Source: Spirochaetales bacterium (GTDB taxonomy: Bacteria; Spirochaetota; Spirochaetia; Sphaerochaetales; Sphaerochaetaceae). From it: 64,000 nt of DNA. Shown piece by piece: positions 22,864-62,034 of this stretch (position 1 is its first letter; the number at the start of each line of letters is the position of its first letter). Where the stretch lies: assembly GCA_017614375.1 (NCBI GenBank), contig JAGABZ010000007.1, positions 1 through 64,000 of the forward strand, written 5' to 3'. A model generated the notes under the pieces. It searched no databases. It worked only from the letters and a program-made list of their open reading frames with translations, and was not told the DNA's origin. The translations under genes and the position numbers were made by a program.

Positions 22864-23520
22864 ATGAAAGGTTCAATCAGTGAGACGGTCAGGAAAACAG
22901 TCGACGCATCGCCGCAGATCAGACGGATGCTGGAGGCCGACCTTTTGAACTGCTCCTCGTACGCGGCCTCGATCAAGCAGGAAATCGAACAGGCCGTCGG
23001 GCACGGCATCGGGAGCAACTCCATCGTCATGGCCCTGCGCCGCTACGCCGCCGAACTCAGGCAGTCCGCCGCCGCTGACGCCCCTGCCCCCGTCGGCTAC
23101 CAGATTGTGATGCATACCAATATCTTTGACTTCAATCTGGAAAAGACCGACACCCTGCTGGGCAAGATCGCCGAGCTTTACAGAAACATCGAAGTCAACC
23201 AGAGGGAGTTCATAAACTCCGTCGTCGGAACAAACGAAATCGGAATCGTCGGGAGCGAGAAGTACCGCTCTTTGGTATCCGAGGCGATTCTCGGGGAAAA
23301 GGTGCTCCTGCACGAAGAGGACCTGGTGGCCGTAACCCTGGTTTTCGACGGCTCGTTTGCCCAGACTCCGGGGATAATCAGCGAGGCGACCGGCCGCCTG
23401 GCCGACGCCAGAATCAACCTTCTGGAGGTCGTGTCCACAATCAACGAACTGACTTTCGTGGTGCGGAGTCAGGACTCGATCCGGGCCTATCAGATTCTCC
23501 GCGGTTTCCAGAACATCTAG
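22864..23520 (+). CDS. ACT-domain regulatory protein, function unknown
   Basis: A 218-residue soluble protein. The last ~75 residues (from LVAVTLVFDG to the end) have the beta-alpha-beta pattern of an ACT domain, including ARINLLEVVSTINELTFVV, which in other proteins binds small ligands such as amino acids. The first ~65 residues resemble a small helical, possibly winged-helix, segment (a conserved NCSSYAASIKQEIEQ and IVMALRRY pattern seen in uncharacterised ACT proteins). No catalytic motif is visible. GGAGG precedes the ATG. It diverges from nrdR and converges on dgt with one base between the stops. Confidence 0.7.
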   Translation: MKGSISETVRKTVDASPQIRRMLEADLLNCSSYAASIKQEIEQAVGHGIGSNSIVMALRRYAAELRQSAAADAPAPVGYQIVMHTNIFDFNLEKTDTLLGKIAELYRNIEVNQREFINSVVGTNEIGIVGSEKYRSLVSEAILGEKVLLHEEDLVAVTLVFDGSFAQTPGIISEATGRLADARINLLEVVSTINELTFVVRSQDSIRAYQILRGFQNI

Positions 23521-23521
23521 T

Positions 23522-24661
23522 TCAGACCGTATCGAACCACTTTCCGGCGGCCATCTTTTCCATCGACTCGTTGATGTGCTCCGGGGTCAGTATCTCCCCC
23601 GCGCAGTCCAGACAGAAGTTGTCGGTCATCCCGGCGGTGTAGTCGAAGACCAGCCGTTCGAAGTTTCCGTCGTTGTCCAGGTAGCGCTGCCTGTCCTCGT
23701 TGATGTGGCGGCAGAACCCGGTGGCCAGCATGTTCTTTTCTTCGCGGTACGGTCTCTCGTCAAAGCCGAAACGACCGAACAGGTCATCAAGGTAGCCGAC
23801 AATCAGCCTGATCAGGCGCGAGAAGTACCTCTCGTAGCCCTCCATCAGCGATGAACGGTATATCTTCTGGTAGTTGAACTCCTTCATCTGCCTGACCGCG
23901 GCATAGACCGGCTCGGAAAAGCACAGCCCGTCGTTCTCATTCGTGTTTGCAATCAGGTCGTTGACCAGCGAGTTGATGATTTCTCCGTTTGTCCTGCCCA
24001 GAACCCCGGAGACTTCGGCAGGCAGGTCTTCCCGTCTGAGAACCCCCATCCTGCAGGCATCCTCGAAGTCACGCCCGAGGTATGCGATCTGGTCGGAGAA
24101 GCGGACCACGCAGCCCTCCCAGGTGGCGGGAATCAGGCCGTGAATCGTCTTTATGGCATCCAGATCCTTCTCTTTTCCCTCCGGCATCAGACTCCGCACA
24201 AAATGCTCGCCGCAGTGGCATACGATTCCGTCCCTGACGGCATAGGTCAGATCCAGAGGATAGAGCTTGTCCACGACCCTCAGGGAGAACACCTCATGCT
24301 GGAATGCGCCCAGACCCTTTTCCTGCATCATCTGGCTGATGATCTTCTCGCCGGTGTGGCCGAACGGAGCGTGTCCCAGATCATGTCCCATTCCGATTGC
24401 CCAGGCCAGCTCCCCGTCCAGTCCCAGTCCGCGGCAGATTGCCGAGGCTATGCTGGCTACATGCAGCGAATGCTCGATGCGGGTACAGATATGGTCATTG
24501 CTCGGGGCGAAGAAAACCTGGGTCTTGTGCTTCAGGCGCCTGAACGGAGAACTGTGCATTATCGCAGTGGTATCGCGGAAATACGCGCCGCGGACATCCT
24601 CGCTTCTGGGTCTGACCCTGTGCATCATTACCGAGCTGTCCAGCGTGTTGTGCAGTTCCAT
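23522..24661 (-). CDS. dgt: dGTP triphosphohydrolase
   Basis: A 379-residue HD-domain enzyme that cuts dGTP (or other dNTPs) to the nucleoside and triphosphate. The metal-binding residues are in RIEHSLHVA, GHDLGHAPFGHTGE (the HD pair) and a later SDQIAYLGRDFEDA. The N-terminal YFRDTTAIMHSSPFRRLKHKTQVF is the family signature. GGGGGAAG lies upstream of the start. With NrdR next door, it points to local attention to dNTP pools. Confidence 0.9.
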   Translation of the reverse strand: MELHNTLDSSVMMHRVRPRSEDVRGAYFRDTTAIMHSSPFRRLKHKTQVFFAPSNDHICTRIEHSLHVASIASAICRGLGLDGELAWAIGMGHDLGHAPFGHTGEKIISQMMQEKGLGAFQHEVFSLRVVDKLYPLDLTYAVRDGIVCHCGEHFVRSLMPEGKEKDLDAIKTIHGLIPATWEGCVVRFSDQIAYLGRDFEDACRMGVLRREDLPAEVSGVLGRTNGEIINSLVNDLIANTNENDGLCFSEPVYAAVRQMKEFNYQKIYRSSLMEGYERYFSRLIRLIVGYLDDLFGRFGFDERPYREEKNMLATGFCRHINEDRQRYLDNDGNFERLVFDYTAGMTDNFCLDCAGEILTPEHINESMEKMAAGKWFDTV

Positions 24662-24681
24662 AACTTCCCCCTTTTGGCTCT

Positions 24682-25374: not shown

Positions 25375-27039
25375 ATGCGGAAAATGGAAGACAGACCTCT
25401 CATCATCCAGACTGACAAGAGCCTCCTGCTGGAAGTCGACTCTCCGGCCTTTGAGGCGTGCCGTGACCAAATCTCACCCTTTGCCGAGCTGATAAGGTCC
25501 CCCGAGCACATCCATACCTATCAGATTTCAGGAATCTCGATTTGGAACGCCCTCGGGGCCGGGCTGACTTTGGAGAACATCCTCGACACCCTCCGGCGCT
25601 GGACCAAGTTCCCCATTCCGCAGATTGTCGTCTCCTACATCACCGAGACAGCCCGCCGCTTCGGCAGGCTGGTCCTGACAAAGGAGGACGAGAACACCCT
25701 CTGTCTCACCGCCGCCGACGAAGCCCTGTTCAGGGAGATCAGGGCCAACAAACATCTCTGCGGCCTGTTCTCCGGTTCGGACAGCGCCAGGCGCGCCCTG
25801 TTTCTAAGCCCCTTGCAGAGAGGAAACATCAAAGCCCAGCTGATTCGCCTGGACTACCCCGTGGAAGACCTGATTCCGTTTGAAGTGCAACAGGACTTCC
25901 CCGTCAGCCTCAAGCCGGAACTGAAACTGCGCGACTACCAGGTTTCCGCGGTCCGTTCGGTTCTGGGAAACGGGGAACCGGGTACCGGTTACGGAGTGGT
26001 CGTCCTGCCCTGCGGCTCGGGAAAGACAATCGTCGGCATGGCGATCATGGCCGCCCTGTGCACCCCCACCCTGATTATCTGCCCCAACGTTATAGCGGTA
26101 CGTCAGTGGATTGCCGAGCTCAAGGACAAAACTCAGATTCCTCCTGAAGAAATCGGTGAATACAGCGGGGAAAAGAAGCAGATCCGGAACATCACAGTCT
26201 GCACGTACCAGGTTCTGATTTACCAATCCGAGAACCCCGATCAGGAGCAGCAGGCGCAGATGAACCACCTGAGCATCCTCGGCGCCAGGCCATGGGGTCT
26301 GGTGATCTTCGATGAGGTTCACCTGCTGCCCGCCCCGATGTTCAGGTTCACCGCCAGCATCCAGACAGCCCACCGGGTAGGAATGACCGCCACCCTGATC
26401 CGCGAGGACGGACTTGAACGGGACGTGTTCAGTCTGATCGGCCCCAAACGCTGCGATGTGCCGTGGAGCGTACTGGAGCAGAAGGGCTGGATTGCCCAGG
26501 CCCTCTGTACCGAAGTCCGCGTCCCCCTCTCCGAGCAGGACACTCTGGCCTATGCCATAGGAAGCCGCTACGAAAAGAACCGTATCGCCGCGGTCAATCC
26601 CCTCAAAATCGATGTCGTATTGGAGTTGATCAAGCGGCATAAAGATGAGTTTATCCTGATTATAGGCCATTATATCAGCCAACTCAGGCAGATCGGCCAG
26701 TACGTGGACTGTCCGGTCATCACCGGAAGCATGCCGAACCGGGAACGTGAGAAATACTTCGAAGATTTCAGACAGGGCCGGACACACATCCTGATAGTCT
26801 CCAGGGTGGCGAACTTTGCCGTCGACCTTCCCGACGCCTCGGTTGCCATCCAGGTTTCCGGAATCTTCGGCTCCAGGCAGGAGGAGGCCCAGAGACTGGG
26901 GCGGATTCTGCGCCCCAAGGAGAGACACAGCAGCTTCTACTCCGTAATCACCCGCTTCTCGGTCGAGGAGGAGTTTGCCGCCAACAGGCAGAAGTTCCTC
27001 ATCGAACAGGGCTACTCATACAGGACGGAGGAGCGATGA
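25375..27039 (+). CDS. XPB/Rad25-type DNA helicase
   Basis: A ~554-residue superfamily 2 helicase of the bacterial XPB group. Motifs in order: LPCGSGKTIVGM (Walker A, about residue 220), the DEVH box in VIFDEVHLLPAP, MTATLIREDG (motif III), and QEEAQRLGRILRP (motif VI, Q-x-x-R-x-G-R). The N-terminal ~170 residues match the damage-recognition/N-terminal region of XPB. Bacterial XPB is a 3'-5' unwinding enzyme linked to repair. The start is placed at 25375, exactly where the mRNA should begin; an ATG at 25384 is the alternative, and an ATG at 25357 lies inside the promoter. Its TGA overlaps the next start as ATGA. Confidence 0.88.
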   Translation: MRKMEDRPLIIQTDKSLLLEVDSPAFEACRDQISPFAELIRSPEHIHTYQISGISIWNALGAGLTLENILDTLRRWTKFPIPQIVVSYITETARRFGRLVLTKEDENTLCLTAADEALFREIRANKHLCGLFSGSDSARRALFLSPLQRGNIKAQLIRLDYPVEDLIPFEVQQDFPVSLKPELKLRDYQVSAVRSVLGNGEPGTGYGVVVLPCGSGKTIVGMAIMAALCTPTLIICPNVIAVRQWIAELKDKTQIPPEEIGEYSGEKKQIRNITVCTYQVLIYQSENPDQEQQAQMNHLSILGARPWGLVIFDEVHLLPAPMFRFTASIQTAHRVGMTATLIREDGLERDVFSLIGPKRCDVPWSVLEQKGWIAQALCTEVRVPLSEQDTLAYAIGSRYEKNRIAAVNPLKIDVVLELIKRHKDEFILIIGHYISQLRQIGQYVDCPVITGSMPNREREKYFEDFRQGRTHILIVSRVANFAVDLPDASVAIQVSGIFGSRQEEAQRLGRILRPKERHSSFYSVITRFSVEEEFAANRQKFLIEQGYSYRTEER

Positions 27040-45945: not shown

Positions 45946-48810
45946 TCAGATTCTGCCCAGGCCCCGGAGGATCTTCTCAGGGGTCATCGGCCAGTCGCGG
46001 ATCCACACTCCGCAGGCATCGGCTATCGCGATTCCGATGGCCGGAGCGGCTCCGTTGGTGGCGATTTCGCTGATGCTCTTCGCTCCGAAAGGTCCGTAGT
46101 AGTCATTGATATCGATCAGGACCGCCTTGAAGTCATCCGGCTGCTCCCAGATCATCGGCACGCGGTAGTCGGTGAAATTGGGGTTCAGACAGACTCCGTT
46201 CTCATCGAGAATCATGCCTTCGTACAGGGTATGTCCGATGGACTTCAGTGCCGCGCCGTAAATCTGGCAGAGGGCCATGTCCGGGTTGATCGGAGTACCG
46301 GCGTCCTGGAAGGCGTAGAACTTCTCGACCTTGATCTCCCCTGTGCGGGTATTGACCGCAACCTGGGCAAAGTGCGCCCCGTACGGGATTGCCGCGTTGG
46401 TGGTGGCGAAGCTTCCCTCGGCCATAAGCTGGCCGCGCCCTGTCCCACCGGTGGCGGTATGGTTGATTTCAAAGAAACTCAGGGACTTGCCCGAAGTCGA
46501 AACCACCCTGCCGGGATACTCCAGACTGAGGTTGTCGGGGTTTTCGTCCATCTGCAGGGCCGCCTCTGCAATGATCTTCTTTTTCAGGTTCTCCGCCGCC
46601 AGAAGCGACGCGTTTCCGCTGTAGAAGGTTCCGCTGGATGCATAGGCTCCTGTGTCAAAGCCCGAGGCGTCGGTGTCTCCGGATATGACGGAAATCATAT
46701 CCATCGGCACTTTGAGGGTTTCGGCGGTCACCTTTGCGGTGATGGTGTCGAGTCCGGTGCCCAGGTCGCTTCCTCCGCTTTGGACAATGATGCTGCCGTC
46801 CGTCTCAAGCTTTGCTATGGCAGTTGCGTGGTCCAGTCCGGGCAGACCGCTGCCCTGCTGGAGCATTGCAAACCCCCTGCCCCGCTTCCAGTCGGAATCC
46901 GGGTCGTTCTCAAGCGGCCTGTCCCAACCCATCATGGCCGCTCCGCGCTCGATGGCCTGCATCAGGCCGCAGGAACCGACCGGCACCACCGCGCCGGCAC
47001 GTCCCTCGCCCAGTCCGGCGAGGATTTCGAGCATGTAGCCCTCTTCGACGCAGTTCTTCTTGACCATCGACAGATAGTCCTGGCCGACCGCCTTTGCCAG
47101 TTCACCCAGACACATCATCAGGGCATAGGTTCCCTTCGGTGCCCCGTATCCCTGATAGGCCCCGGTAGGCGGACAGTTGGTGTAGTACGTGTACACGTCG
47201 AACTTCATGTTGTCCACCTTGAACAGCGGCAGGGTCTTTGAGCAGGAGTTCATCGGCACCGTCAGGCAGTGGTTGCCGTAAGGACCGGTGTTCGCCCTGC
47301 AGTCAAAGCTTATGGCGGTTATCCGGCCGTCCTTCTTGGCGCCCATCTTTATGGTGACCTTCATCGGATGGCGGGTGCTGTTGGCGATGAACTCCTCGAC
47401 GCGGGTGTTGCGGGTGTAGATAGCCTTTCCCGTAATCCAGGTCATGTAGGCGCAGAGGTCCTCGATGAGGATGTCCTGCTTCGAGCCGTAGCCGCCGCCG
47501 ACCTTTTCCTTTATTACGTGGACCTTGCTCTCCGGGATGGAACAGACCTTTGCCACCACTCTGCGCAGATGGTACGGAATCTGGGTCGAGGCCTTGATGA
47601 CCAGCCTGCCGCCTTCGATCTTGGAGAAGCAGACGTGGACCTCCAGCGGGGTGCACTGGACCTGGTCGGTCTGGTATGTCCGCTCGATAACCTCGTCCGC
47701 CTCGGCAAAGCCCTTTTGAACATCGCCGATCTGACCGTGGGCGGCGGAAGCCAGATTGTGCTTCGGGTCGGCATTGATCGGGAACGGATAGTGGATTTTT
47801 CCTTCCCTCGGGTCGGCGCCGGCGTTGTACGCGTCCAGATTATCCGGGGCACCGACCCCGAAACTGACCTCTCCGCCCTGCACGACCGGAGCTCCGGGGG
47901 CCATGGCCTGCTCTACGGTGAGGACAGGTTCGAGGACCTGATATTCGACTTTAATCAGTTCTTTGGCTCTTTTTGCCGTTTCCCGGCTATCGGCAAGAAT
48001 AGCGGCAACCCTGTCACCGACGTGTCTGACCTTTTGGTTGAGCAGTTTCTTGTCGTGGGGCGAAGGCTCCGGCGACCCCTGTCCTGCGGTGGTGTAGTAA
48101 ATCTCAGGAACATCCTTGTAGGTGAGGATTTTCACCACACCTTCGAGTTTTTCAGCCTCGGAGGTATCGATGTCGGTGATATAGGCACTGGCATACGGCG
48201 AGCGCAGGACCTCCAGCCAGCAGGCGCCGGGCTCGACGAAATCCTCTACGTAAGCCTGCTCTCCTTTCACAAGCTGCGGTCCGTCCACCTTGGGCAGGGC
48301 CTTTCCGACATAATCGAGGTTCTTTCTGAACTCGGGAATCAGCTCGGACGGCTTTTTCCCCGTCACGGCCAGTTTCACCGCCAGATAGTAGTGCTCATAC
48401 CCGGCGTCGCGGATAAAGATTCCGCTGAGGGCATCGCGGATCTGTGCCCTCGTGGGATTGGGATGGTTCTCCAGAAGCCAGGTCAGCAGCAGCGCGGCCG
48501 CCGGCGCGTTGTACGCGCTCTGGACGATGCCGGCATCAATCATAGCCTGCTGCACTACCGTCAGCGAACGCCCCTGCGCAAGCCCGTCCGGTGTGCGGAT
48601 TTCCGCCCCGTCCGCCTGCCAGGCGCACATCAGGTTCGAATACACCGGACGCCCGTTGTACAGAATGGTATCGCTGCCGGCGAAGCCCTCCCGGTCGTCG
48701 CTGTCACGGACGCAGAAGTGCCCGGCATCGGCCAGGACCTGCCGCAGACATGCCGCGGGTTCGGCGTCCAGAACTGTCAGTTTCCCGTTGATTGTACAGT
48801 AGAACTTCAT
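45946..48810 (-). CDS. xdhD: XdhD-type molybdenum hydroxylase
   Basis: A 954-residue xanthine dehydrogenase-family protein closely matching E. coli XdhD along its length as remembered (SDD-x-x-GFAGSD near residue 40, VQSAYNAPAAALL, then the aldehyde oxidase/xanthine dehydrogenase molybdopterin domains). Molybdenum-site motifs include GGGYGSKQD, GAYQGYGAPKG, SGGSDLGTGLDT and GPFGAKSISE. The N-terminal ferredoxin-like domain keeps its shape but has lost the cysteines that bind the two [2Fe-2S] clusters. Expected role: hydroxylation or dehydroxylation at a purine ring, with electrons passing to YgfM and YgfK. Last gene of the purine operon; the start overlaps the ygfM stop (ATGA). Confidence 0.88.
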   Translation of the reverse strand: MKFYCTINGKLTVLDAEPAACLRQVLADAGHFCVRDSDDREGFAGSDTILYNGRPVYSNLMCAWQADGAEIRTPDGLAQGRSLTVVQQAMIDAGIVQSAYNAPAAALLLTWLLENHPNPTRAQIRDALSGIFIRDAGYEHYYLAVKLAVTGKKPSELIPEFRKNLDYVGKALPKVDGPQLVKGEQAYVEDFVEPGACWLEVLRSPYASAYITDIDTSEAEKLEGVVKILTYKDVPEIYYTTAGQGSPEPSPHDKKLLNQKVRHVGDRVAAILADSRETAKRAKELIKVEYQVLEPVLTVEQAMAPGAPVVQGGEVSFGVGAPDNLDAYNAGADPREGKIHYPFPINADPKHNLASAAHGQIGDVQKGFAEADEVIERTYQTDQVQCTPLEVHVCFSKIEGGRLVIKASTQIPYHLRRVVAKVCSIPESKVHVIKEKVGGGYGSKQDILIEDLCAYMTWITGKAIYTRNTRVEEFIANSTRHPMKVTIKMGAKKDGRITAISFDCRANTGPYGNHCLTVPMNSCSKTLPLFKVDNMKFDVYTYYTNCPPTGAYQGYGAPKGTYALMMCLGELAKAVGQDYLSMVKKNCVEEGYMLEILAGLGEGRAGAVVPVGSCGLMQAIERGAAMMGWDRPLENDPDSDWKRGRGFAMLQQGSGLPGLDHATAIAKLETDGSIIVQSGGSDLGTGLDTITAKVTAETLKVPMDMISVISGDTDASGFDTGAYASSGTFYSGNASLLAAENLKKKIIAEAALQMDENPDNLSLEYPGRVVSTSGKSLSFFEINHTATGGTGRGQLMAEGSFATTNAAIPYGAHFAQVAVNTRTGEIKVEKFYAFQDAGTPINPDMALCQIYGAALKSIGHTLYEGMILDENGVCLNPNFTDYRVPMIWEQPDDFKAVLIDINDYYGPFGAKSISEIATNGAAPAIGIAIADACGVWIRDWPMTPEKILRGLGRI

Positions 48811-49550
48811 CTGCCCGCCTCCTTGTGAAGGTCGAACAGGACCGTTTTCGTCAGATAGGCCTTGTATTCATCCGAACCGTAGATGTCCGAAACGAAGCGA
48901 ACGCCGGCCTGATTCAGAGCCCTGGCGACACAGTTTTCGCACTTCACGTCCGAGAACCCGACCTTCACGATTCCCGTGCCCTTTACCGCAGCCCAGGCAA
49001 AGTCCGGATTGGCGGCGGCGGCGGTCAGAACCGCCAGGCTTTCCTTTGTCATGGCGATCCTTTTTGAGACGACCGGGGCCTTCAGCGGAACCGATACGCA
49101 GCTGATGATCCGCTGCCTTAGGGAATCGAAGGAGGCCAGATACTCTTCTGCGGAAATCTCATCCTTCCAGTCCAGTTCAACCACGGCACCCGCGGCCAGA
49201 AGGGTCGGCACCAGATAACTGTCATCCCGGTGCAGATAGAGGTTGCCGGCTATGGTGGCCGCTTCCCTCTTTTGGAGCGAGCCCATGAAAGCAAGCGCCT
49301 CGCGCATATACGCGGGAGTTTTCGGATGGTCGATGGCAGCCTGGAAAGTTGTTCCCAGAGCGTAGCGGATCCGACCCTGCCGGGTCGAGATCCCGCCCTC
49401 CGGTTCGGCGAGGACGACGGCGTTTTCAGCCTTTATCAGAGAGCCGAGCCGGTTGAGTTCGGTTCCGCCCCCGTAAAGAACCGCATCGCCCTTTGAGAGC
49501 AGCGCCAGAGCCTCTGCCCGGTCACCGGCAAACAGGATCTTTCCTATCAT
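48807..49550 (-). CDS. ygfM: FAD-binding subunit of the XdhD-type hydroxylase
   Basis: A 247-residue protein of the molybdopterin dehydrogenase FAD-binding family: LYGGGTELNRL for the FAD loop, AATIAGNLYLHRDDSYLVPTLLAAGA for the second FAD-binding segment (normally TIGGN), and a CO dehydrogenase flavoprotein-like C-terminal domain. It would pass electrons from the molybdenum subunit to its acceptor. Coupled by ATGA overlaps to both neighbours. Confidence 0.85.
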   Translation of the reverse strand: MIGKILFAGDRAEALALLSKGDAVLYGGGTELNRLGSLIKAENAVVLAEPEGGISTRQGRIRYALGTTFQAAIDHPKTPAYMREALAFMGSLQKREAATIAGNLYLHRDDSYLVPTLLAAGAVVELDWKDEISAEEYLASFDSLRQRIISCVSVPLKAPVVSKRIAMTKESLAVLTAAAANPDFAWAAVKGTGIVKVGFSDVKCENCVARALNQAGVRFVSDIYGSDEYKAYLTKTVLFDLHKEAGR

Positions 49551-50920
49551 TGAAGTCCTCCCTTTCGAAGCAGCGCGGCGGCGGCTTCGTTGGCCCTGGC
49601 CGCGAGCTCCTCCTCGTCGGCACCGACAAGGTGTCCGTCGTCCACGACAACTCTGCCGTTGACGATGGTGTATTTCGTCTGATGATTGTAGCCGCAGAAA
49701 AGCAGAGCCGCCACCGGGTCGGACAGCGAACCGGCGTACTGCAGGCCTGTCATGTCGAAAACGGCAATGTCCGCCGCCCAGCCGGGCTCCAGTCTGCCGA
49801 TTCTGTCATAACCGAGCATCTCCGCCCCGTTTACGGTGGCCATTCTGAACACATCTGAGGCCTTTATTGCCGAAGAACCGTACTTCACCCGCTGCAGGAG
49901 CAGCGCCAGACGCATCTCCCCCAGCATATCCGAACTGTCATTGGAAGCGCTTCCGTCCACGGCCAGCCCGACGTTGATTCCCCTTTTCAGCATCTCAGTG
50001 ACCCGGCAGATTCCGCTGCCCAGCCTCATGTTGCTCGCCGGGCAGTGGGCCACCGAAGTCCCCGTCCGGGCCAGAACGTCCAGTTCCTCATCGTTGAACC
50101 AGATTCCGTGGGCATAGAACACATCCGGCCCGACCAGGGAGCACTGCTCCATCAGCTCCAGCGGCCTGACTCCGTGGATTTTCAGGCAGTCGTTCTCTTC
50201 GTCGATTGTCTCGCAAAGGTGGGTATGCAGGTGCACCCCGTATCTGCGGGCCAGGGCGGCGCTTTCGCTCATGCACTGCCTGGTAACCGAAAACGGCGAG
50301 CACGGAGCCAGCACAATCCTGTGCATGGCAAACGGTGACGGGTCGTGGAAAGCCCGGATGCACCGCTCGCTGTCCCGGATGATTTCATCCTCAGACTGCA
50401 CCACGCTGTCCGGGGGCAGGCCTCCGTCCTTGCGCGACTTGCTCATGCTTCCCCGGGTCGGAGAAAAGCGCATGCCGAGCCTGTCCGCCGCCTCGAACTG
50501 CAGAGCCATGATGTCACCCTCGAAGGAGCGGGGGTACAGATAGTGGTGGTCGGTGGTCAGGGTACAGCCGGTTTTAAGCAGTTCGGCCATAGCCAGAGTC
50601 GAAGAAACCGAAACGCCCTGCGCGTCGATGTTCTTCCAGATTTCATAGAGGTACACCAGCCAGTCGAAAAGCTTGGCATCCTGCACGGCTTTGAGGTTTC
50701 GCGTCAGAGTCTGGTAGAAGTGATGATGGGTATTGACAAAACCCGGGACGACGGTGCAACCGGAGCAGTCGATTGTCCGATCGGCCCGGACATCGAGGTT
50801 GGTCCCCACGGCTTTTACCGTATTGCCCTCGATCAGCAGATCCGCCCCGCTTTGGATTTCCTTGTCCGGGTCGGTCATCAGGGCGAAAATGTTCTTTAGA
50901 AGCAGGCTCTGTTTTTCCAT
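49547..50920 (-). CDS. 8-oxoguanine deaminase-like amidohydrolase
   Basis: A 457-residue amidohydrolase close to the 8-oxoguanine deaminase group, which turns 8-oxoguanine into urate. Metal ligands: NTHHHFYQTLTRN (H-x-H), LHTHLCETIDEENDC, the later histidine in FYAHGIWF, and the aspartate in AVDGSASNDSSDM. The FSPTRGSMS and GLPPDSVVQ segments and TSVAHCPASNMRLGSG are typical of that group and of related guanine deaminases. The start at 50920 is set by GGAG 6 nt upstream; the frame runs further upstream without a site. The 19-bp gap from ssnA keeps it in the operon. Confidence 0.82.
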   Translation of the reverse strand: MEKQSLLLKNIFALMTDPDKEIQSGADLLIEGNTVKAVGTNLDVRADRTIDCSGCTVVPGFVNTHHHFYQTLTRNLKAVQDAKLFDWLVYLYEIWKNIDAQGVSVSSTLAMAELLKTGCTLTTDHHYLYPRSFEGDIMALQFEAADRLGMRFSPTRGSMSKSRKDGGLPPDSVVQSEDEIIRDSERCIRAFHDPSPFAMHRIVLAPCSPFSVTRQCMSESAALARRYGVHLHTHLCETIDEENDCLKIHGVRPLELMEQCSLVGPDVFYAHGIWFNDEELDVLARTGTSVAHCPASNMRLGSGICRVTEMLKRGINVGLAVDGSASNDSSDMLGEMRLALLLQRVKYGSSAIKASDVFRMATVNGAEMLGYDRIGRLEPGWAADIAVFDMTGLQYAGSLSDPVAALLFCGYNHQTKYTIVNGRVVVDDGHLVGADEEELAARANEAAAALLRKGGLQ

Positions 50921-50939
50921 CGGTTTCTCCGTGTGCGCC

Positions 50940-52277
50940 TCAGGGCTTGATTCCGTCCACCTTCTTCCAGAGGCGTGCGGCAACCTCGGCAGCACGGGCA
51001 TAGATTTCCTGTGCGTCGACGAGGGTGAAGCGGCGGTTCTCGTAAACCGGAACACCGTCGATAATCACCGATTCGACGCATCCGGCATTCATACCCCAGA
51101 CAAAGTGCCCCGGGGCGTTCTGGGCAAGAAGCGGCGTCGGATTGTGATAGTCCAGAATCGCCAGGTCAGCCTTGTATCCCGGCTTCACCCTGCCCAGTCG
51201 GGCGTCCTTGAAGTACAGGCTGACCAGGTCGTTTCCCCTGTTGAGGGCGGCGACAAAGTCCGCCGGCCACCACGGCCCTCCCTGATCCTTGTGCTTGAAG
51301 AACGCAATCTTCAGCTCCTCGAACATGTTCCCGCCGCATCCGTCGGTTCCGATGATCAGTTTCTCGATGTCGGTCAGATGTGAGCAATAGCCGACGTTGT
51401 TGTTCATATTGCTCCGGCCGTTGTGGGCGAACCAGCAGCCGCGGTCGTTGAGCAGTTCCACTTCATGGGAGTTGATGTGAAGTCCGTGTACGAGCAGCGT
51501 GTCCGGCCTGAGCAGTCCGTAGCGGTCGAGCCTGTCGATGATGTCGGTTCCGTGGACATGGTGGCAGTGGACCACATCGTACTTGTCCTCCGCTATGTGG
51601 ATGTGGGCCCCGCGGCCGGTGTCCTCACAGGCCTGTCCCATCAGCTCAAGCCCCTCGTCGGGAATGGTGAACTGTGCATGGCCTCCGATCATCGCGTCGC
51701 ACATGACCCTTTCCCCGGCCCTGCGGCGCCTGTCAACCTCACGGGCGAAACGGACGTTTTCATTTACTCCCTCGCGGACCTCGTCCATCCCTTTGTTGCG
51801 GTCGGTGACCTCATAGCAGGTCAGTCCCCTCAGGCCGGTTTCCTCGATGCCGCGGGCAATGACCGAAAGCGATCCGTCTATGAACGACGGACTGGCATGA
51901 TGGTCTATAACCGAAGTAGTACCGGCCGCGATGGCATCAAGTGAGCAGATCAGGGAACTGTAATAGCAGGCCTCCTCGTCCAGACCCCGGTCCAGACGCC
52001 ACCACCATTCCTTGAGGACCTGGATGAAATCGGTCTGCGGCCCGGCGGAAATCAGCATTCCCCTGGACAGTCCGCTGTAGTAGTGGTGGTGGCCGCAGAC
52101 GTTGCCCGGAATCACCGTGCGTCCGGCGGCGTCGATGACCTTGTCAGGCTTCAGGCCGTCACCGGCTCCGGGACCGACGGCTGTGATTACCGAACCATCG
52201 ATAACGATGTCGGCATTCTCAATGACCTCGAACGGAGATCCGGTCTGCATCACTCTGGCGTTTTTTATGACAATCAT
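50940..52277 (-). CDS. ssnA: SsnA amidohydrolase
   Basis: A 445-residue amidohydrolase matching E. coli SsnA: PGNVCGHHHYYSGLSRGM with the H-x-H metal pair, FIQVLKEWWWRLDRGLDEE, SVIDHHASPSFIDGSLS, AHIHIAEDKYDV, FAHNGRSNMNNNVGY and GTDGCGGNMFEE. SsnA belongs to the purine-degradation gene cluster and is thought to act on a ring-opened or deaminated purine intermediate. GGAGGAATAG directly before the ATG overlaps the ygfK stop. Confidence 0.92.
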   Translation of the reverse strand: MIVIKNARVMQTGSPFEVIENADIVIDGSVITAVGPGAGDGLKPDKVIDAAGRTVIPGNVCGHHHYYSGLSRGMLISAGPQTDFIQVLKEWWWRLDRGLDEEACYYSSLICSLDAIAAGTTSVIDHHASPSFIDGSLSVIARGIEETGLRGLTCYEVTDRNKGMDEVREGVNENVRFAREVDRRRRAGERVMCDAMIGGHAQFTIPDEGLELMGQACEDTGRGAHIHIAEDKYDVVHCHHVHGTDIIDRLDRYGLLRPDTLLVHGLHINSHEVELLNDRGCWFAHNGRSNMNNNVGYCSHLTDIEKLIIGTDGCGGNMFEELKIAFFKHKDQGGPWWPADFVAALNRGNDLVSLYFKDARLGRVKPGYKADLAILDYHNPTPLLAQNAPGHFVWGMNAGCVESVIIDGVPVYENRRFTLVDAQEIYARAAEVAARLWKKVDGIKP

Positions 52278-55200
52278 CTATTCCTCCACCCTGCCCAGCA
52301 GGTAGTCGTAATCCTCGAGGATGATTTCAATCAGGGCCTTGGCCTGCGGATCGATATCCCCGCCGACCGCGCCGGTGTCGTCCACCGTGCACCTTACGAC
52401 CTCCCCGTCCGTCCTGACAAGCAGTCCGTCGCAGTCAAGCAGCATTCCGCTGTTCTGTGAGGACTCGAAATCGTCCTTTCTCGAGAAGATGGTGAACTTG
52501 TCCCTGTACGGACGACCCTGATGGTTGCAGAACACGGCGCAGTTTCCGCATTCGTTGCAGTAAGCGTCCAGATGGACAATCTGGAACGGGTCCTCGAACA
52601 GATCGCATCCGCGGACATCGATCGAGACATTTGCCCTGTTCGGACAGACCTCGACGCACTTGCCGCAGACGTACGGGCAGTCCAGACACCTGTGGGCCTC
52701 GTTCGACTCGAAGTCCTTGTCACCGTATTTCAGGCTGCAGCGGAATGAGGTCTTCTTGGCGTGGATGTCATCAAGCTCGGCCTGCTCCGCCTGAAGCAGT
52801 TCCTCCCTCTCCTCCTCGGAAAGCTCCTCGGTGCTGTAACCGCAGCCGCAGTCCTCATTGTCACAGTCGGTCCGGTCGCAGTTCCCGCAGTCCCCGGCAG
52901 AGCATTCGCAGCCCTCGGCTCCGGCCTCAATCTCGTCGGCGGCGTTCTCGAACTCGGTATCGATGGCATCCTCCACCGCGGCTCTTGCCGAAGCGATGCA
53001 ACGGACGACTGTCGACGGTCCGCTCTGGGCGTCGCCGATCAGGTACACACCCTCAATCGGGGTGCGCATCGTTTCATGGTCGGTAACCGGCCTGCGTTTC
53101 TCATCAAGCGGCAGCCCGAAGGACTCCAGCAGGTCCGAATCGCAGCGCTCTCCGGTGGCGGTGATCAGCAGAGAGCAGTCCAGGACAAAGGTTCCGCCGG
53201 TCTCCACCGGGCTCCTTCTGCCCGAAGCGTCCGCCTCCCCCAGTTCCATCACGCTGCACTCGAGCATGCCGTCCCTGAAGGCCTTCGGATTGGAAAGGAA
53301 ACGGAAGATCGTACCCTCTGCCAGCGCGTGTTCGTACTCCTCCCTGTCGGCCGGCATTTCCTGGGAACTTCTGCGGTAAACGACGGTGACGCTCTTTGTG
53401 CAGGGCAGTCTCAATGCCGCCCTGGCACAGTCCATAGCGGTGTTGCCTCCGCCGCAGATTACGATGTTTCCGCTGATTCCGCCGCCGGTGGGGTCCTTGG
53501 CGTATGCGGAAAGGAATTCAAGAGCCCCGACGACCGGCAGCCCGCCTTCATTGTCCAGCTTTATGAAGTTGTCCTTCGGTGTTCCGACCGCGTAAAAGAC
53601 ATAGTCGAAACCCTGATTCTTCAGAGCCTGTACAGTCTCCTCCTCGTCCCTGACGTTGAAGCGGAATTCAACCCCCGTTTTCATGATGTGGTCGATATCG
53701 GCCTGCACAGCCGAAGCGGGAATCCTGAACTCGGGGATGATCCTCTTCACCACTCCGCCGGCATCCGCGGCCCTTTCCAGGACGGTGACTCTGAAACCGG
53801 CCCTGGCGAGGAAATACGCCGCCGAGAGACCGGCCGGTCCGGCTCCGACAACGGCCGCCTTGATATCCGACAGCTCGGTTTCCGGCTTGAACCCGGCATA
53901 ATAGGCCGCCGAGCCCTTTTCAACCGCGACCTTTTTCATATCGCGGATTCTGACCGCGCCCTCGTAGTCCATCCTGCTGCAGTGCTTCTGACACTGGTGG
54001 TCACAGATGGCACAAGTGATGTTGGGCAGGGCATTGTCCTCATAAATCAGCTCCAGGGCCTCGGCGTACATTCCCCTGCCGGCCAGATAGACGTAGTCCG
54101 GAACATCCTGATGAATAGGACAGGCATCCTGGCACGGAGCCGTGAAGCAATCGAACATCTCCAGTTCGGAGGAACTTTTAGCCCTGTCCGTACCGCGGAA
54201 CTCCTTCTGCTGACTTGTCTCGGTCAGGGCACGTTCACTAAGTGCCCTCAAGGCATCCGGATCGACACCATCGGCATCCCACCGTTTGCTCTCCCTGATA
54301 AGCAGCTCTATCATCCGGGTCATTCTGGAGTACCCGCCCGGCTTGAGCATATCGGTGGCCAGCGTTATCGGCCGGATGCCCGTGTCAAACAGATCCTTCA
54401 CGGAGAATATATTGGCTCCTCCGGAGTACGAAATCGGAAGCTTTCCCGCAAACTCTTTCGAAAGCAGGGCGCCTACCCTGGTCGAAATCGGAAGCAGGGC
54501 CCGTCCGCTCATGTACATCTCCGCCCCGGGCAGCTGTCCCTGGTCGTTGACCGAACCGAGGGTATTGGTCAGCTTCACCCCGAATCCCAGTCCGAGTGAT
54601 GCAGCCAGATCCTTGAGCCTGTGAAGCATCGCCAGGGCGTCGGAGTACTGGAGATCCTTTTCAAAACTCTCCCGGCGCAGACCGACGTATGCGAAACCGG
54701 TCTTGTCGAGGATTTCACGGACCGCGTCATATCCGAGCAGTGTCGGGTTGAGTTTGACGAAGGTGTTCAGGCCCTTTTCACTGAGCATGTAGGTGCAGAT
54801 TGCCTCGATTTCCTTCGGGGGACAGCCGTGCATGGTGGAAATGGTGACCTGCCTGCATATATGGCTGTCGATCGAGGCCCCCAGATTGCCGAGTTTCCCC
54901 GCCAGGGCTTCAAACGGGGTATCGTCCAGCAGCCCGCCGGCAATCAGCTTTTCCATTTCGGCGATGTAGGTTTTAAAGGCCGGGACACCGGAGGCGTCCA
55001 TCATGTTGTTGATGAAATCCTGCATCCTCGGCTGCTTTATCCCCTCCAGGTTGTAGCCGACGCTCATGTTGAAGATGAACCGGTCGTCGGCAATCCTGCC
55101 CCCGCGCAGCAGCGCCTGAAGCAGATGGACGGCAATCCAGGCCTTCAGGTATTCGTCAAAGGCCTTGGGCAGGGTGTATTCGGTGCTCCACTCGACGTTG

Positions 55201-55514
55201 TACCCCTCATCCCGGGCGTCGATACAGGGTTTGTCGATATCCAGCGTGTCCATGATCTGGACCGTCTTGAGCTCTATGAACCGCCCGCCGGCCAGATAGG
55301 CTGTGATTATGTTCTGGGCCAGTTGCGTATGGGGACCGGCGGCGGGGCCGCACGGAGTCGAACATACCTGACCGAAAACATTGACGGCCTTTTTCTCGTC
55401 GTCCTCAAAGAACTGTCTCCTGCCCAGACCGAAAATCGAGTCCTCGTTCCTCAGCTCGGCAAACATCCTCTTAAGCAGTTCCGAAAACGGAACCGGACGC
55501 ATAATGTCACCCAT
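52278..55514 (-). CDS. ygfK: YgfK oxidoreductase with extra Cys-rich insert
   Basis: A 1078-residue iron-sulfur flavoprotein matching E. coli YgfK (about 1030 residues): MGDIMRPVPFSELL start, the N-terminal TIM-barrel dihydroorotate dehydrogenase-like domain (PCGPAAGPHTQLAQN, GRFIELKTVQIMDTL), and a linking Fe-S segment (APCQDACPIHQDVPDYVYL). Then come a GltD-like FAD/NAD domain (VVGAGPAGLSAAYFLARAG, VICGGGNTAMDCAR) and a C-terminal ferredoxin region (CLDCPYVCGKCVEVCP, CNECGNCAVFC). A cysteine-rich acidic insert, about residues 860-890 (GCECSAGDCGNCDRTDC onward), precedes the last domain. First gene of the operon; GGAGG lies 6 nt before the ATG. Confidence 0.92.
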   Translation of the reverse strand: MGDIMRPVPFSELLKRMFAELRNEDSIFGLGRRQFFEDDEKKAVNVFGQVCSTPCGPAAGPHTQLAQNIITAYLAGGRFIELKTVQIMDTLDIDKPCIDARDEGYNVEWSTEYTLPKAFDEYLKAWIAVHLLQALLRGGRIADDRFIFNMSVGYNLEGIKQPRMQDFINNMMDASGVPAFKTYIAEMEKLIAGGLLDDTPFEALAGKLGNLGASIDSHICRQVTISTMHGCPPKEIEAICTYMLSEKGLNTFVKLNPTLLGYDAVREILDKTGFAYVGLRRESFEKDLQYSDALAMLHRLKDLAASLGLGFGVKLTNTLGSVNDQGQLPGAEMYMSGRALLPISTRVGALLSKEFAGKLPISYSGGANIFSVKDLFDTGIRPITLATDMLKPGGYSRMTRMIELLIRESKRWDADGVDPDALRALSERALTETSQQKEFRGTDRAKSSSELEMFDCFTAPCQDACPIHQDVPDYVYLAGRGMYAEALELIYEDNALPNITCAICDHQCQKHCSRMDYEGAVRIRDMKKVAVEKGSAAYYAGFKPETELSDIKAAVVGAGPAGLSAAYFLARAGFRVTVLERAADAGGVVKRIIPEFRIPASAVQADIDHIMKTGVEFRFNVRDEEETVQALKNQGFDYVFYAVGTPKDNFIKLDNEGGLPVVGALEFLSAYAKDPTGGGISGNIVICGGGNTAMDCARAALRLPCTKSVTVVYRRSSQEMPADREEYEHALAEGTIFRFLSNPKAFRDGMLECSVMELGEADASGRRSPVETGGTFVLDCSLLITATGERCDSDLLESFGLPLDEKRRPVTDHETMRTPIEGVYLIGDAQSGPSTVVRCIASARAAVEDAIDTEFENAADEIEAGAEGCECSAGDCGNCDRTDCDNEDCGCGYSTEELSEEEREELLQAEQAELDDIHAKKTSFRCSLKYGDKDFESNEAHRCLDCPYVCGKCVEVCPNRANVSIDVRGCDLFEDPFQIVHLDAYCNECGNCAVFCNHQGRPYRDKFTIFSRKDDFESSQNSGMLLDCDGLLVRTDGEVVRCTVDDTGAVGGDIDPQAKALIEIILEDYDYLLGRVEE

Positions 55515-55548: not shown

Positions 55549-55576
55549 ATTCTAAACGATGCACACCGCAAGTCAA
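55549..55576 (-). promoter_or_regulatory. ygfK: Promoter of the ygfK operon
   Basis: On the minus strand TTGACT (55576-55571) and TAGAAT (55554-55549) are 16 bp apart, each five of six to consensus. The leader would be about 25-30 nt. Confidence 0.6.
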
Positions 55577-55749: not shown

Positions 55750-56208
55750 ATGAGCGATTCTGACAGTTGTTGGAAAAACGATGGCGCGCCTGACTCCTCC
55801 GGCTTTTTCTCGGAGGAGAAAGCCGCCGATGCCCTGTGGGAACGTGTCCAGGACTGTATGACCTGCACCGGGGTGAAGTCCTTAAGAAAACTGGCTCAGA
55901 GCGCCTCGGTTTCGGTCAAGACCCTGTCGAATTGCCGCAACCTGCACCGTCTGCCCCGGGTTGAAACCCTTGTCAGGCTGGCCCTGACCCTCGGCGTATC
56001 CGTAGAGTACCTGCTGTTCGGCAAGGACCAATCCCTGAGAAACCGCAGGGAGCAGAATTTCCTGCAGAAGTTCAGGCACGACAGGGATTTCAGCCGCCTG
56101 TGCGACCTGATCGACCTGTATCCCTACCTGACTCACGGCCAGAGGACCTACGCGGAAATGATGATTGCGGCAGAGAAAAAAAGAAAGTACCGCAAGTCCG
56201 GATCCTGA
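55750..56208 (+). CDS. XRE-family HTH regulator divergent from the purine operon
   Basis: A 152-residue protein with a helix-turn-helix at about 38-98 (SLRKLAQSASVSVKTLSNCRN, then VETLVRLALTLGVSVEYLLFG), the XRE/Cro arrangement. A short acidic N-terminus and a charged C-terminal part of about 50 residues, perhaps for dimerisation, flank it. No ligand-binding domain is recognisable. It is divergent from ygfK with a 235-bp shared control region, so it is a candidate regulator of the purine operon; this is inference. AAGGAA lies directly before the ATG. Confidence 0.75.
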   Translation: MSDSDSCWKNDGAPDSSGFFSEEKAADALWERVQDCMTCTGVKSLRKLAQSASVSVKTLSNCRNLHRLPRVETLVRLALTLGVSVEYLLFGKDQSLRNRREQNFLQKFRHDRDFSRLCDLIDLYPYLTHGQRTYAEMMIAAEKKRKYRKSGS

Positions 56209-59479: not shown

Positions 59480-61126
59480 TCAACCCTGCCTGTTTCTGCC
59501 CTCGCGCCACCGGTCGACCACCTGCTTGATGTTGTTGCAGTCATTGGTCAGAATCACATCGCAACCCATGGCCAGATACTCCTCCGTCTGTTCCGGAGTG
59601 TCGGCGTAATAAACGTTGCAGATTATCCCGTGGCTGTGGGCCAGTTCGGTCATCTCACGTGTCACATGCCCGTGGAAGAGCTGGACCTTCTCGCATCCGA
59701 GTTCGATTGCCCTCTGGACTATGCGGTCCGGTTCGTCCCCGGCCCCGACGCAGCGCTTTATTCCCGGGGCGTACTCCTTCAGCTGGCGCAGGAGTATGTC
59801 GTTTCCGGTCATGAAGTAACACCAGTCCTCACAGCCGTACTTGTGAATCAGACCGGCAATCTTGCGGATCCGCTGTACATCGTAGACCAGACGGTTGTCG
59901 CCGGTCTTGATGTGGATGTTCATTATCACCCGGCAGGCGAACTGTGCCAGAACCTCCTCAAAGAGAGGGATCTTCAGGCCTTTGAACGCCTGTCCGTCTC
60001 CGAAGCGACAGCCGAAATCGAACTGCAGGAGCTCGGCATAGGTATAGTCCGTCACCAGACCTGTGCCGTTGCTGCACCGCTCCAGGCTGCGGTCATGGGA
60101 AACGACCAGTTCGCCGTCCCGTGTCCACCAGACATCGAACTCGATTTCCTCCGCTCCGAGGGCGACGGCCGCCCCGAATCCGGGCATGGTTCCCTCCGGT
60201 GCCACCGCCGGGAAACCGCGGTGGGCGCAGGTTCTCGGGTACGGGGTCAGTTTGTCGGAAAGACGTACCGAACTCCCCGCCTGGCGGTATTTCCACGGCC
60301 TGCGGCCCTGCTCGATGTACTGCCAGTGGCAGCAGTCCGGGTTGCCGAACCCGCCCGGTTTGAGGTACTTGCGGTGCGGGTCGATTTCAGCGACGGCGGT
60401 TCCGACCTCATGTCCGAGATTTTCGATTATCAGGCCGTCCGGCCCGACGATCATCGTGCCGCCGCCCAGATTCGAACCGTTGTCCACAGCCACGCAGGAA
60501 CGCAGAACATAGGCGCACGTGTTGTACGCCAGGAACTTGGTTATGGTCTCGGCGGTTTCCAGAGTATCGCTTTTCTGCTGGGAGCATCCGATGATTATGT
60601 CGACATTCTCCTTCGCGATGGCGGAGAACATCTCATAGAAGTAGAAATCGTAGCATGTCAGGAAGGCGAACCTGATACCGTCAACCGTCAGGATATAGGG
60701 GGCCTCGTATTCGTAGGTGTACGAGGCGTCGAGCTTGAGGTTTTGCTCCTCTCCCCGGGTAAGGTGCTGCTTGTAATACTTTCCGATGATTTCCCCGTCC
60801 CTGCCGAAAGCCAGGGTGGTGTTTCGGATCCCATTCTTTGTCGGGTAGTGGCAGTTGACGAACACCAGGGCATGGCAGCGGCGGGCCGTCTCTGAGGCTT
60901 TGTCCAACAGGGCTTTCTGGCTCGCCCCTGAAAGCAGGGCCACCTGAGCGGCATCGGCGCAGCGGGCCAGGATATCGGACCCCTCGGGCAGGACTATGAT
61001 GTCCATATCCGGATTACAGGCATCGAGGGTGTTTATCTCCCACTCGACGTACTCCCTGCTCTTTCGGACGATGTCCTCCTGAGAGACGCAGAACGGACTC
61101 TGGAATACGCAGACTTTCTGTTTCAT
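59480..61126 (-). CDS. Nitrilase-glycerophosphodiester phosphodiesterase fusion
   Basis: A 548-residue cytoplasmic fusion. Residues about 1-275 form a carbon-nitrogen hydrolase with the Glu-Lys-Cys triad: VLPEGSD, GKYYKQHLTRGEE and LTCYDFYFYEMF. Residues about 305-548 form a GDPD barrel: CAHRGFPAVAPEGTMPGFG, EEIEFDVWWTRDGELVVSHDRSLER, with the HRG, E-x-D and HD residues intact. I know of no common characterised enzyme with this order. It suggests a substrate carrying both an amide and a phosphodiester bond, imported by the adjoining ABC transporter. Start at 61126 with CAGGAG 6 nt upstream. It lies 14 bp after the permease stop. Confidence 0.82.
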   Translation of the reverse strand: MKQKVCVFQSPFCVSQEDIVRKSREYVEWEINTLDACNPDMDIIVLPEGSDILARCADAAQVALLSGASQKALLDKASETARRCHALVFVNCHYPTKNGIRNTTLAFGRDGEIIGKYYKQHLTRGEEQNLKLDASYTYEYEAPYILTVDGIRFAFLTCYDFYFYEMFSAIAKENVDIIIGCSQQKSDTLETAETITKFLAYNTCAYVLRSCVAVDNGSNLGGGTMIVGPDGLIIENLGHEVGTAVAEIDPHRKYLKPGGFGNPDCCHWQYIEQGRRPWKYRQAGSSVRLSDKLTPYPRTCAHRGFPAVAPEGTMPGFGAAVALGAEEIEFDVWWTRDGELVVSHDRSLERCSNGTGLVTDYTYAELLQFDFGCRFGDGQAFKGLKIPLFEEVLAQFACRVIMNIHIKTGDNRLVYDVQRIRKIAGLIHKYGCEDWCYFMTGNDILLRQLKEYAPGIKRCVGAGDEPDRIVQRAIELGCEKVQLFHGHVTREMTELAHSHGIICNVYYADTPEQTEEYLAMGCDVILTNDCNNIKQVVDRWREGRNRQG

Positions 61127-61140
61127 GGCTGACTCCTGCC

Positions 61141-62034
61141 CTATTTCCTCTTGAGTTTCGGGTCGAGCCTGTCGCGCAGCCAGTCGCCGTAGAGCGAGGC
61201 GGTCACGCAGAACAGAACGATGACCAGAGTCGGGATGAGTACCAACAGCGGCTTGAGGACCATGTAGTTCCGGCCGTTGTTGACCATGGTTCCGAGCGAA
61301 GCGTTGGGCGGCTGGATTCCGAAGCCGAGGAAGCTCAGCGAGCTCTCGAACAGGATCACGGCGCCGATGTTGTTGGTGAAGGTTACAATCAGCGGCGAGG
61401 CTATGTTCTTGATGATGTGCTCGAAAATAATCCTTATCGTCGAGGCTCCTATTGCCCGGCTGCACTCGATGAAGTTCTCCTTCTTAAGCTGGATTACCCC
61501 TGCCCTGGTCTGCCTGGCGAAGCCGGACCAGTAAATCAGCGTCGTCATCAGGATGACGATACCGGTTCCGAAACCGAAGATGGTCGAGACCGCCATACCT
61601 ATGATAATCGAGGGCAGTGAGTGACGGACGTTGATCATGAACATGACCACGTCGTCGACCCAGCCGCCGCAGATTCCGGCCAGGATTCCGACGGTCAGTC
61701 CGAGGACGACGGAGGAAAGGAGCCCCACGGTCGCCAGGGAAATGCTCGCCCGGATTGCGTAGAGGAGTCTGACGGCCACATCACGTCCCAGGGCATCTGT
61801 CCCGAGCAGGTACCCGGAATCGGACAGGCCGAAGATGCTCGGGTCAAGCAGCCGGTCCTTGAGGTTGGTGTCACCCAGGTCAATCGGGTACAGGTACGGG
61901 GCCAGATAGGAATAGAGAATCAGCCCCAGCGACATGATTACCAGCACCCAGATTCCGATGGGGAGTTTGCCGCTTCTGACCTTTATCGTTCTGTAAACAG
62001 GGGCTTTGCTTTGTGTTTTTTCTGCTTCTTTCAT
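61141..62034 (-). CDS. dppC: Dipeptide/oligopeptide-type ABC permease, DppC/OppC-like
   Basis: A 297-residue inner-membrane permease with the OppC-type N-terminal segment, six membrane spans, LLGTDALGRDV near the first periplasmic loop, and the coupling EAA-type motif SRAIGASTIRIIFEHIIKN. Start ATG at 62034 with AAGGGGG 6 nt upstream. Partner of the DppB-like permease upstream. The cargo is uncertain: the linked GDPD genes hint at glycerophosphodiester-type compounds rather than peptides. Confidence 0.9.
   Translation of the reverse strand: MKEAEKTQSKAPVYRTIKVRSGKLPIGIWVLVIMSLGLILYSYLAPYLYPIDLGDTNLKDRLLDPSIFGLSDSGYLLGTDALGRDVAVRLLYAIRASISLATVGLLSSVVLGLTVGILAGICGGWVDDVVMFMINVRHSLPSIIIGMAVSTIFGFGTGIVILMTTLIYWSGFARQTRAGVIQLKKENFIECSRAIGASTIRIIFEHIIKNIASPLIVTFTNNIGAVILFESSLSFLGFGIQPPNASLGTMVNNGRNYMVLKPLLVLIPTLVIVLFCVTASLYGDWLRDRLDPKLKRK

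Follow-up and report, generated by a model that had tools for sequence, protein, structure and literature searches.

The reductive route of urate breakdown was solved only in 2025, and it bears on host urate levels and on nitrogen recycling in the gut or in termites. For the E. coli and C. difficile enzymes studied, it was established that XdhD-YgfM reduces urate to 2,8-dioxopurine (Li et al., 2025; PMC12507026), which YgfK and SsnA convert into ureidomethyl-hydantoin. HyuA then opens this compound, the ureido groups are removed by YgeW or UacY and by YgeY, and YgeX turns 2,3-diaminopropionate into pyruvate (PMC12507026). The first half of this route is reductive: urate accepts electrons before it ends up as pyruvate and ammonia (PMC12507026). 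Percudani (PMC12990295) counted among the open points which donor supplies XdhAC with electrons and in what order the ureido groups are cleaved, and the presence of SsnA in Spirochaetota had already been noted (PMC12507026). Here we describe a five-gene operon, ygfK-ssnA-8-oxoguanine deaminase-ygfM-xdhD, found in a 64,000-nucleotide stretch of a Spirochaetales bacterium (contig JAGABZ010000007.1, positions 1 to 64,000; termed the window). The operon quite likely codes for the opening half of this pathway, with most of the rest encoded elsewhere in the genome and a pair of pyridoxal phosphate (PLP) enzymes, PALP1 and PALP2, proposed at its end.

The features of the operon are as follows:
55549..55576, minus strand: sigma-70-like promoter TTGACT-16-TAGAAT ahead of ygfK (consensus scan, 10/12), suggestive only
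52278..55514, minus strand: ygfK, predicted FMN/FAD/Fe-S reductase that would dearomatise 2,8-dioxopurine with SsnA (TIGR03315, identity to the E. coli protein)
50940..52277, minus strand: ssnA, predicted amidohydrolase opening the reduced purine ring (NF005540, TIGR03314, FastTree placement)
50921..50939, minus strand: ssnA/deaminase junction of 19 bp, the slot of ygeY in two congeneric species, apparently deleted here
49547..50920, minus strand: putative 8-oxoguanine (or guanine) deaminase, 457 aa, start corrected (NF006055, 3hpa alignment)
48807..49550, minus strand: ygfM, divergent FAD-binding subunit, predicted partner of XdhD (Pfam FAD_binding_5)
45946..48810, minus strand: xdhD, predicted molybdenum hydroxylase-type urate reductase, urate to 2,8-dioxopurine (TIGR03313, Glu606)

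The five-gene operon that a sequence-only reading of this DNA had proposed consists of intact open reading frames, all of which run in one direction on the minus strand (55514-45946) with little space between them. Four of the encoded proteins pass curated models, i.e., YgfK (1329 bits against TIGR03315 of NCBIfam, cut-off 835), SsnA (532 against NF005540, cut-off 444; 528 against TIGR03314, cut-off 456), the deaminase (593 against the equivalog NF006055, cut-off 532) and XdhD (1203 against TIGR03313, cut-off 1102). YgfM is divergent and reaches 90 bits against TIGR03312, under the cut-off of 241; it passes Pfam FAD_binding_5 and its gene position is conserved. Identity to the E. coli K-12 proteins is 51% for YgfK, SsnA and XdhD and 29% for YgfM, and a FastTree tree places SsnA with that of the E. 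coli type. Since the same gene set recurs in the same order in many related genomes, its arrangement is not due to chance, and the five-gene operon is confirmed as real. For the deaminase the most probable start is the ATG at 50920, 19 bp past the ssnA stop, rather than the GTG at 51055 within ssnA. GGAGG-type ribosome-binding-like stretches precede ssnA, ygfM and xdhD, while sigma-70-like sites in the region are no more numerous than in shuffled sequence, and no Rfam riboswitch was detected in the window or in six further loci scanned.

The identity of XdhD is further indicated by Glu606, the residue of E. coli XdhD that has been proposed to direct urate towards 2,8-dioxopurine, which is kept in the window XdhD and in the aligned XdhD orthologues and is lacking in E. 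coli XdhA and in the XdhA of this genome. The second peculiarity concerns the N-terminal Fe-S domain. E. coli XdhD has other residues at all eight positions of the 2Fe-2S cysteines found in XdhC-type proteins, and its first 170 residues contain no cysteine. The same eight are missing from the window XdhD and from essentially all XdhD orthologues of its family, while a second spirochaete family (L165, L168) retains the complete set in its XdhD. As the E. coli complex reportedly has NADH-dependent activity, electrons would have to pass from FAD to the molybdenum without these clusters. The main text of PMC12507026 does not mention the missing cysteines.

The remaining pathway genes were sought by searches and stretches of the genome (1.54 Mb, 17 contigs, 98% complete). 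The sequence-only reading, which had tied the operon to anaerobic urate breakdown, named ygeX, ygeY, ygeW, hydantoinase and purine permease genes as the partners to be expected and the absence of all other pathway genes as the outcome that would speak against the link; most of them were found. ygeW and ygeY lie adjacent on contig C5, with scores of 740 against TIGR03316 (cut-off 500) for YgeW and 609 against TIGR03526 (cut-off 322) for YgeY. A putative HyuA-type hydantoinase, 35% identical to E. coli HyuA, is encoded on contig C6 far from the operon, where it adjoins gcvPB-, gcvPA- and gcvH-like genes and glyA, the gene of serine hydroxymethyltransferase (L018:8868-15041). Carbamate kinase is on contig C9, and the genome encodes XdhABC and two further sets of the xanthine dehydrogenase (XDH) type. 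An adenine deaminase gene stands next to an NCS2 permease gene and a second NCS2 permease is encoded elsewhere, giving two purine-type permeases as candidates for UacT. YgeX was missing: TIGR03528 has no match in this genome or in its two congeners, and a candidate at 67.7 kb of contig C6 was rejected as the threonine synthase ThrC. The earlier link is upheld, with the corrections that the early steps of the pathway are reductive (PMC12507026) and that YgeX is absent.

For this organism we infer all reactions from what sequence comparison gives, which is linkage and homology. By orthology with the E. coli enzymes, XdhD-YgfM would reduce urate to 2,8-dioxopurine, YgfK would reduce the ring of this product and SsnA would open it to ureidomethyl-hydantoin. 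The hydantoinase, YgeW with carbamate kinase, and YgeY would then yield 2,3-diaminopropionate, ammonia and carbamoyl phosphate, hence ATP. The final step, without YgeX, is proposed to be the consumption of diaminopropionate by PALP1 and PALP2 through β-elimination to pyruvate and ammonia. Some family names suggest a different role of the cassette, that of a selenate reductase or a selenium-metabolism system: the models TIGR03313, TIGR03315 and TIGR03314 carry such names, the cassette co-occurs with YqeB/YqeC, and an association with orphan SelD has been described (PMC2276186). The genome does encode yqeB and yqeC, of the selenium-dependent molybdenum cofactor (342 against TIGR03309, cut-off 220; 124 against TIGR03172, cut-off 73), yet this cofactor itself accounts for the selenium link, and C. 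difficile requires YqeB for growth on urate (PMC11448449). Work on the E. coli orthologues has demonstrated turnover of urate and 2,8-dioxopurine (PMC12507026), and a selenium cassette is extremely improbable.

The two enzymes proposed for the end of the pathway are encoded about 1.2 kb from carbamate kinase:
contig C9, about 23216-24679: PALP1, about 488 aa, weakly CysK-like fold-II PLP protein
contig C9, with PALP1, ending at 25908: PALP2, threonine-synthase-like fold-II PLP protein with two N-terminal CxxC motifs

The PLP lysine is conserved in both (PTGAHK and SFKDR). Matches to PALP2 are present in 131 of the 139 genomes of the window's order, mostly at 53-75% identity and often about 6 kb from ssnA, and matches on haloarchaeal plasmids, annotated as ThrC where annotated at all, add nothing. 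Across 393 Spirochaetota genomes PALP1 is found in 68, SsnA in 98 and both in 67 (Fisher p = 4e-50; p = 6e-28 leaving out the window's own family). Other families of the phylum hold full clusters with the pair inside, as at L165 and L168, in the order hyuA-like-ygfK-ssnA-ygeY-PALP2-PALP1-deaminase-ygfM-xdhD-ygeW. When 54 ssnA stretches were compared, ygeX alone was present in 7 (six spirochaetes and E. coli), a PALP1/PALP2 orthologue alone in 28 (a raw tally of 29 minus one hit at 29% identity) and neither within the stretch in 18, while none of the 54 contained both ygeX and the PALP genes. The ygeX-type spirochaete clusters have a divergent SsnA and no deaminase. We judge the chances about even that PALP1 and PALP2 constitute a two-enzyme PLP-dependent end step that replaces YgeX across much of Spirochaetota, and we infer that the pair would perform the last step of the pathway or one near it. 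The variant appears undescribed in the literature searched. In PMC12507026 a PALP domain near SsnA serves as the YgeX marker, and because of this the spirochaete nodes of that study may have been scored through PALP1/PALP2; it is a fair toss-up whether the role of the pair has stayed hidden for this reason, both proteins falling under the same broad domain.

One may ask if the pair belongs to the pathway and catalyzes another reaction, e.g., β-replacement of diaminopropionate to cysteine-like amino acids or elimination of the ureido group of albizziin. The CysK-like sequence of PALP1 and the threonine-synthase-like sequence of PALP2 would fit such chemistry, as would the retention of YgeX in most relatives (115 of the 139 genomes of the order, though 0/3 in the window's genus) and the surroundings of PALP1-like genes on rhizobial plasmids, which lie near a TauE-type exporter and an M20 hydrolase and, in one case, RidA and pyruvate carboxylase. 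However, the pair fills the ygeX slot in clusters and never stands alongside a cluster ygeX, and the two remaining PF00291 proteins of the genome are a CysK-like protein and ThrC. We therefore regard another reaction as possible, with a likelihood somewhat short of even. The rhizobial relatives of PALP1 (L192, L193; 43% identical) are a lead only, their surroundings hinting at a β-eliminating lyase.

The distribution of the cluster shows what has changed in the window's species. SsnA is present in 133 of the 139 genomes of the order, and the typical layout, derived from stretches of 20 genomes, is PALP2-PALP1 facing ygfK-ssnA-ygeY-(XDH)-deaminase-ygfM-xdhD-ygeW, with some clusters continuing into adenine deaminase and NCS2 permease genes. 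Two congeners (L098, L099) retain ygeY between ssnA and the deaminase, at the place of the 19-bp junction in the window. In a FastTree tree the YgeY of the window's species falls with the E. coli/Brachyspira-like type and that of a genome of another genus (G125), apart from the YgeY of the congeners. To that same genome its ygeW is 91% and its ygeY 82% identical, against 62-67% for other cluster genes, and the foreign-type ygeY-ygeW pair (L022:8713-11415) is of the ygeX-cluster type. In the simplest reading, the operon copy of ygeY was deleted and a horizontally acquired ygeY-ygeW pair replaced it elsewhere in the genome.

Several points weigh against the proposed pathway and its ending. The hydantoinase scores 386 bits against the dihydropyrimidinase model TIGR02033, under the cut-off of 393, and YgfM is a weak match to its family model. 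A PF00994 search of the genome for MoeA/MogA returned CinA alone (L060:9278-10696), despite four XDH-type enzymes. The p-values for the co-occurrence of PALP1 and SsnA overstate independence, the genomes being related. Many relatives have both YgeX and the PALP pair, YgeX lying away from the urate cluster in the four whose YgeX surroundings were examined; the pair may thus have a role different from the YgeX reaction. Taken with the loss of YgeX from the genome and of ygeY from the operon, the CinA result could also mean a decaying or incomplete pathway, in which the molybdenum cofactor is perhaps lacking and urate is not fully broken down. Such decay is quite unlikely, however: all five reading frames are intact with conserved active-site residues, ygeY and ygeW occur above cut-off elsewhere, PALP1 and PALP2 are intact and the yqeB/yqeC maturation genes are retained, in an assembly that is 98% complete and in whose gaps missing genes could sit.

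The deaminase was regarded in the sequence-only reading as an addition that would make urate from 8-oxoguanine. That activity is kept as a prediction and may extend to guanine, while the enzyme turned out to be no local addition, for it recurs in the clusters of related genera. Its closest solved structure is 3hpa (446 bits), with which the His/Cys/Glu/Asp active-site motifs align. The family was found in 71 genomes from 20 of the 22 genera of the order (a few lower-scoring, more distant members included), usually inside the urate cluster and there often after an XDH or beside PALP1; in two large genera (g2, g10) most genomes lack it. Relatives of the enzyme convert 8-oxoguanine to urate and guanine to xanthine (PMC6186785), and the subfamily shows low efficiency with guanine and broad promiscuity (PMC13054789). 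Four PF01979 proteins are encoded in the genome, and as these are the deaminase, SsnA, adenine deaminase and hydantoinase, no guanine deaminase GuaD of this type is present. The deaminase, by acting on 8-oxoguanine to give urate or on guanine to give xanthine, probably feeds guanine-derived purines into the pathway without a classical guanine deaminase; guanine could reach urate by way of 8-oxoguanine or by way of xanthine, and both routes would supply the pathway. The promiscuity of the family, which acts on isocytosine, guanine and N2,N2-dimethylguanine (PMC6186785, PMC13054789), would also suit an enzyme for guanine analogues or repair scavenging with no metabolic tie to urate, but its recurrence within the urate cluster across genera, often by XDH or PALP1, and a product that would be urate or xanthine make this role unlikely.

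Two neighbouring features of the window were also observed. A divergent regulator of CI/HTH_3 type (55750-56208) faces the operon where PALP1 sits elsewhere, and no relatives of it were found among the stretches of neighbouring genomes. At 59480-61465 a nitrilase-like domain is apparently fused, as judged by eye, to a glycerophosphodiester phosphodiesterase-like domain.

The pathway itself was already known; new are its variant in spirochaetes, the deaminase as a recurrent component and PALP1/PALP2 as a putative replacement of YgeX. This branch is found in almost all genomes of one order, probably draws in guanine-derived purines through the deaminase and probably has different enzymes at its end. 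Should PALP1 and PALP2 indeed replace YgeX, searches with YgeX or the PALP domain as a marker would judge these organisms wrongly, and a testable function would be gained for two widespread enzymes.

Among the described systems, the Brachyspira-like and Treponema-like clusters of Spirochaetota (L172-L174, L177; genus names inferred) likewise hold ssnA, ygfK, ygeW and ygeY in one cluster, but they differ in containing ygeX and a divergent SsnA and in having neither the deaminase nor the PALP pair. The urate clusters of C. difficile and C. sporogenes (UacX and UacY variants; PMC12507026, PMC12990295) resemble the present system in overall chemistry and in SsnA, hydantoinase and YgeY, whereas YgfK and YgeW are found here instead of UacX and UacY, and YgeX is missing. 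The 8-oxoguanine deaminases 3hpa and that of P. aeruginosa (Hall et al., 2010, cited in PMC6186785) belong to the same amidohydrolase subfamily, with aligned active-site motifs; the papers examined report no urate operon for them, in contrast to the deaminase described here. Compared with the E. coli cluster (PMC12507026), the deaminase is inserted between ssnA and ygfM, the downstream genes are dispersed, PALP1/PALP2 stand instead of YgeX and GuaD of the PF01979 type is absent. Yet YgfK, SsnA, XdhD and probably the divergent YgfM are orthologous and encoded in the same order, with about 51% identity (29% for YgfM), and the XdhD proteins of both organisms have in common Glu606 and an Fe-S domain without cluster cysteines.

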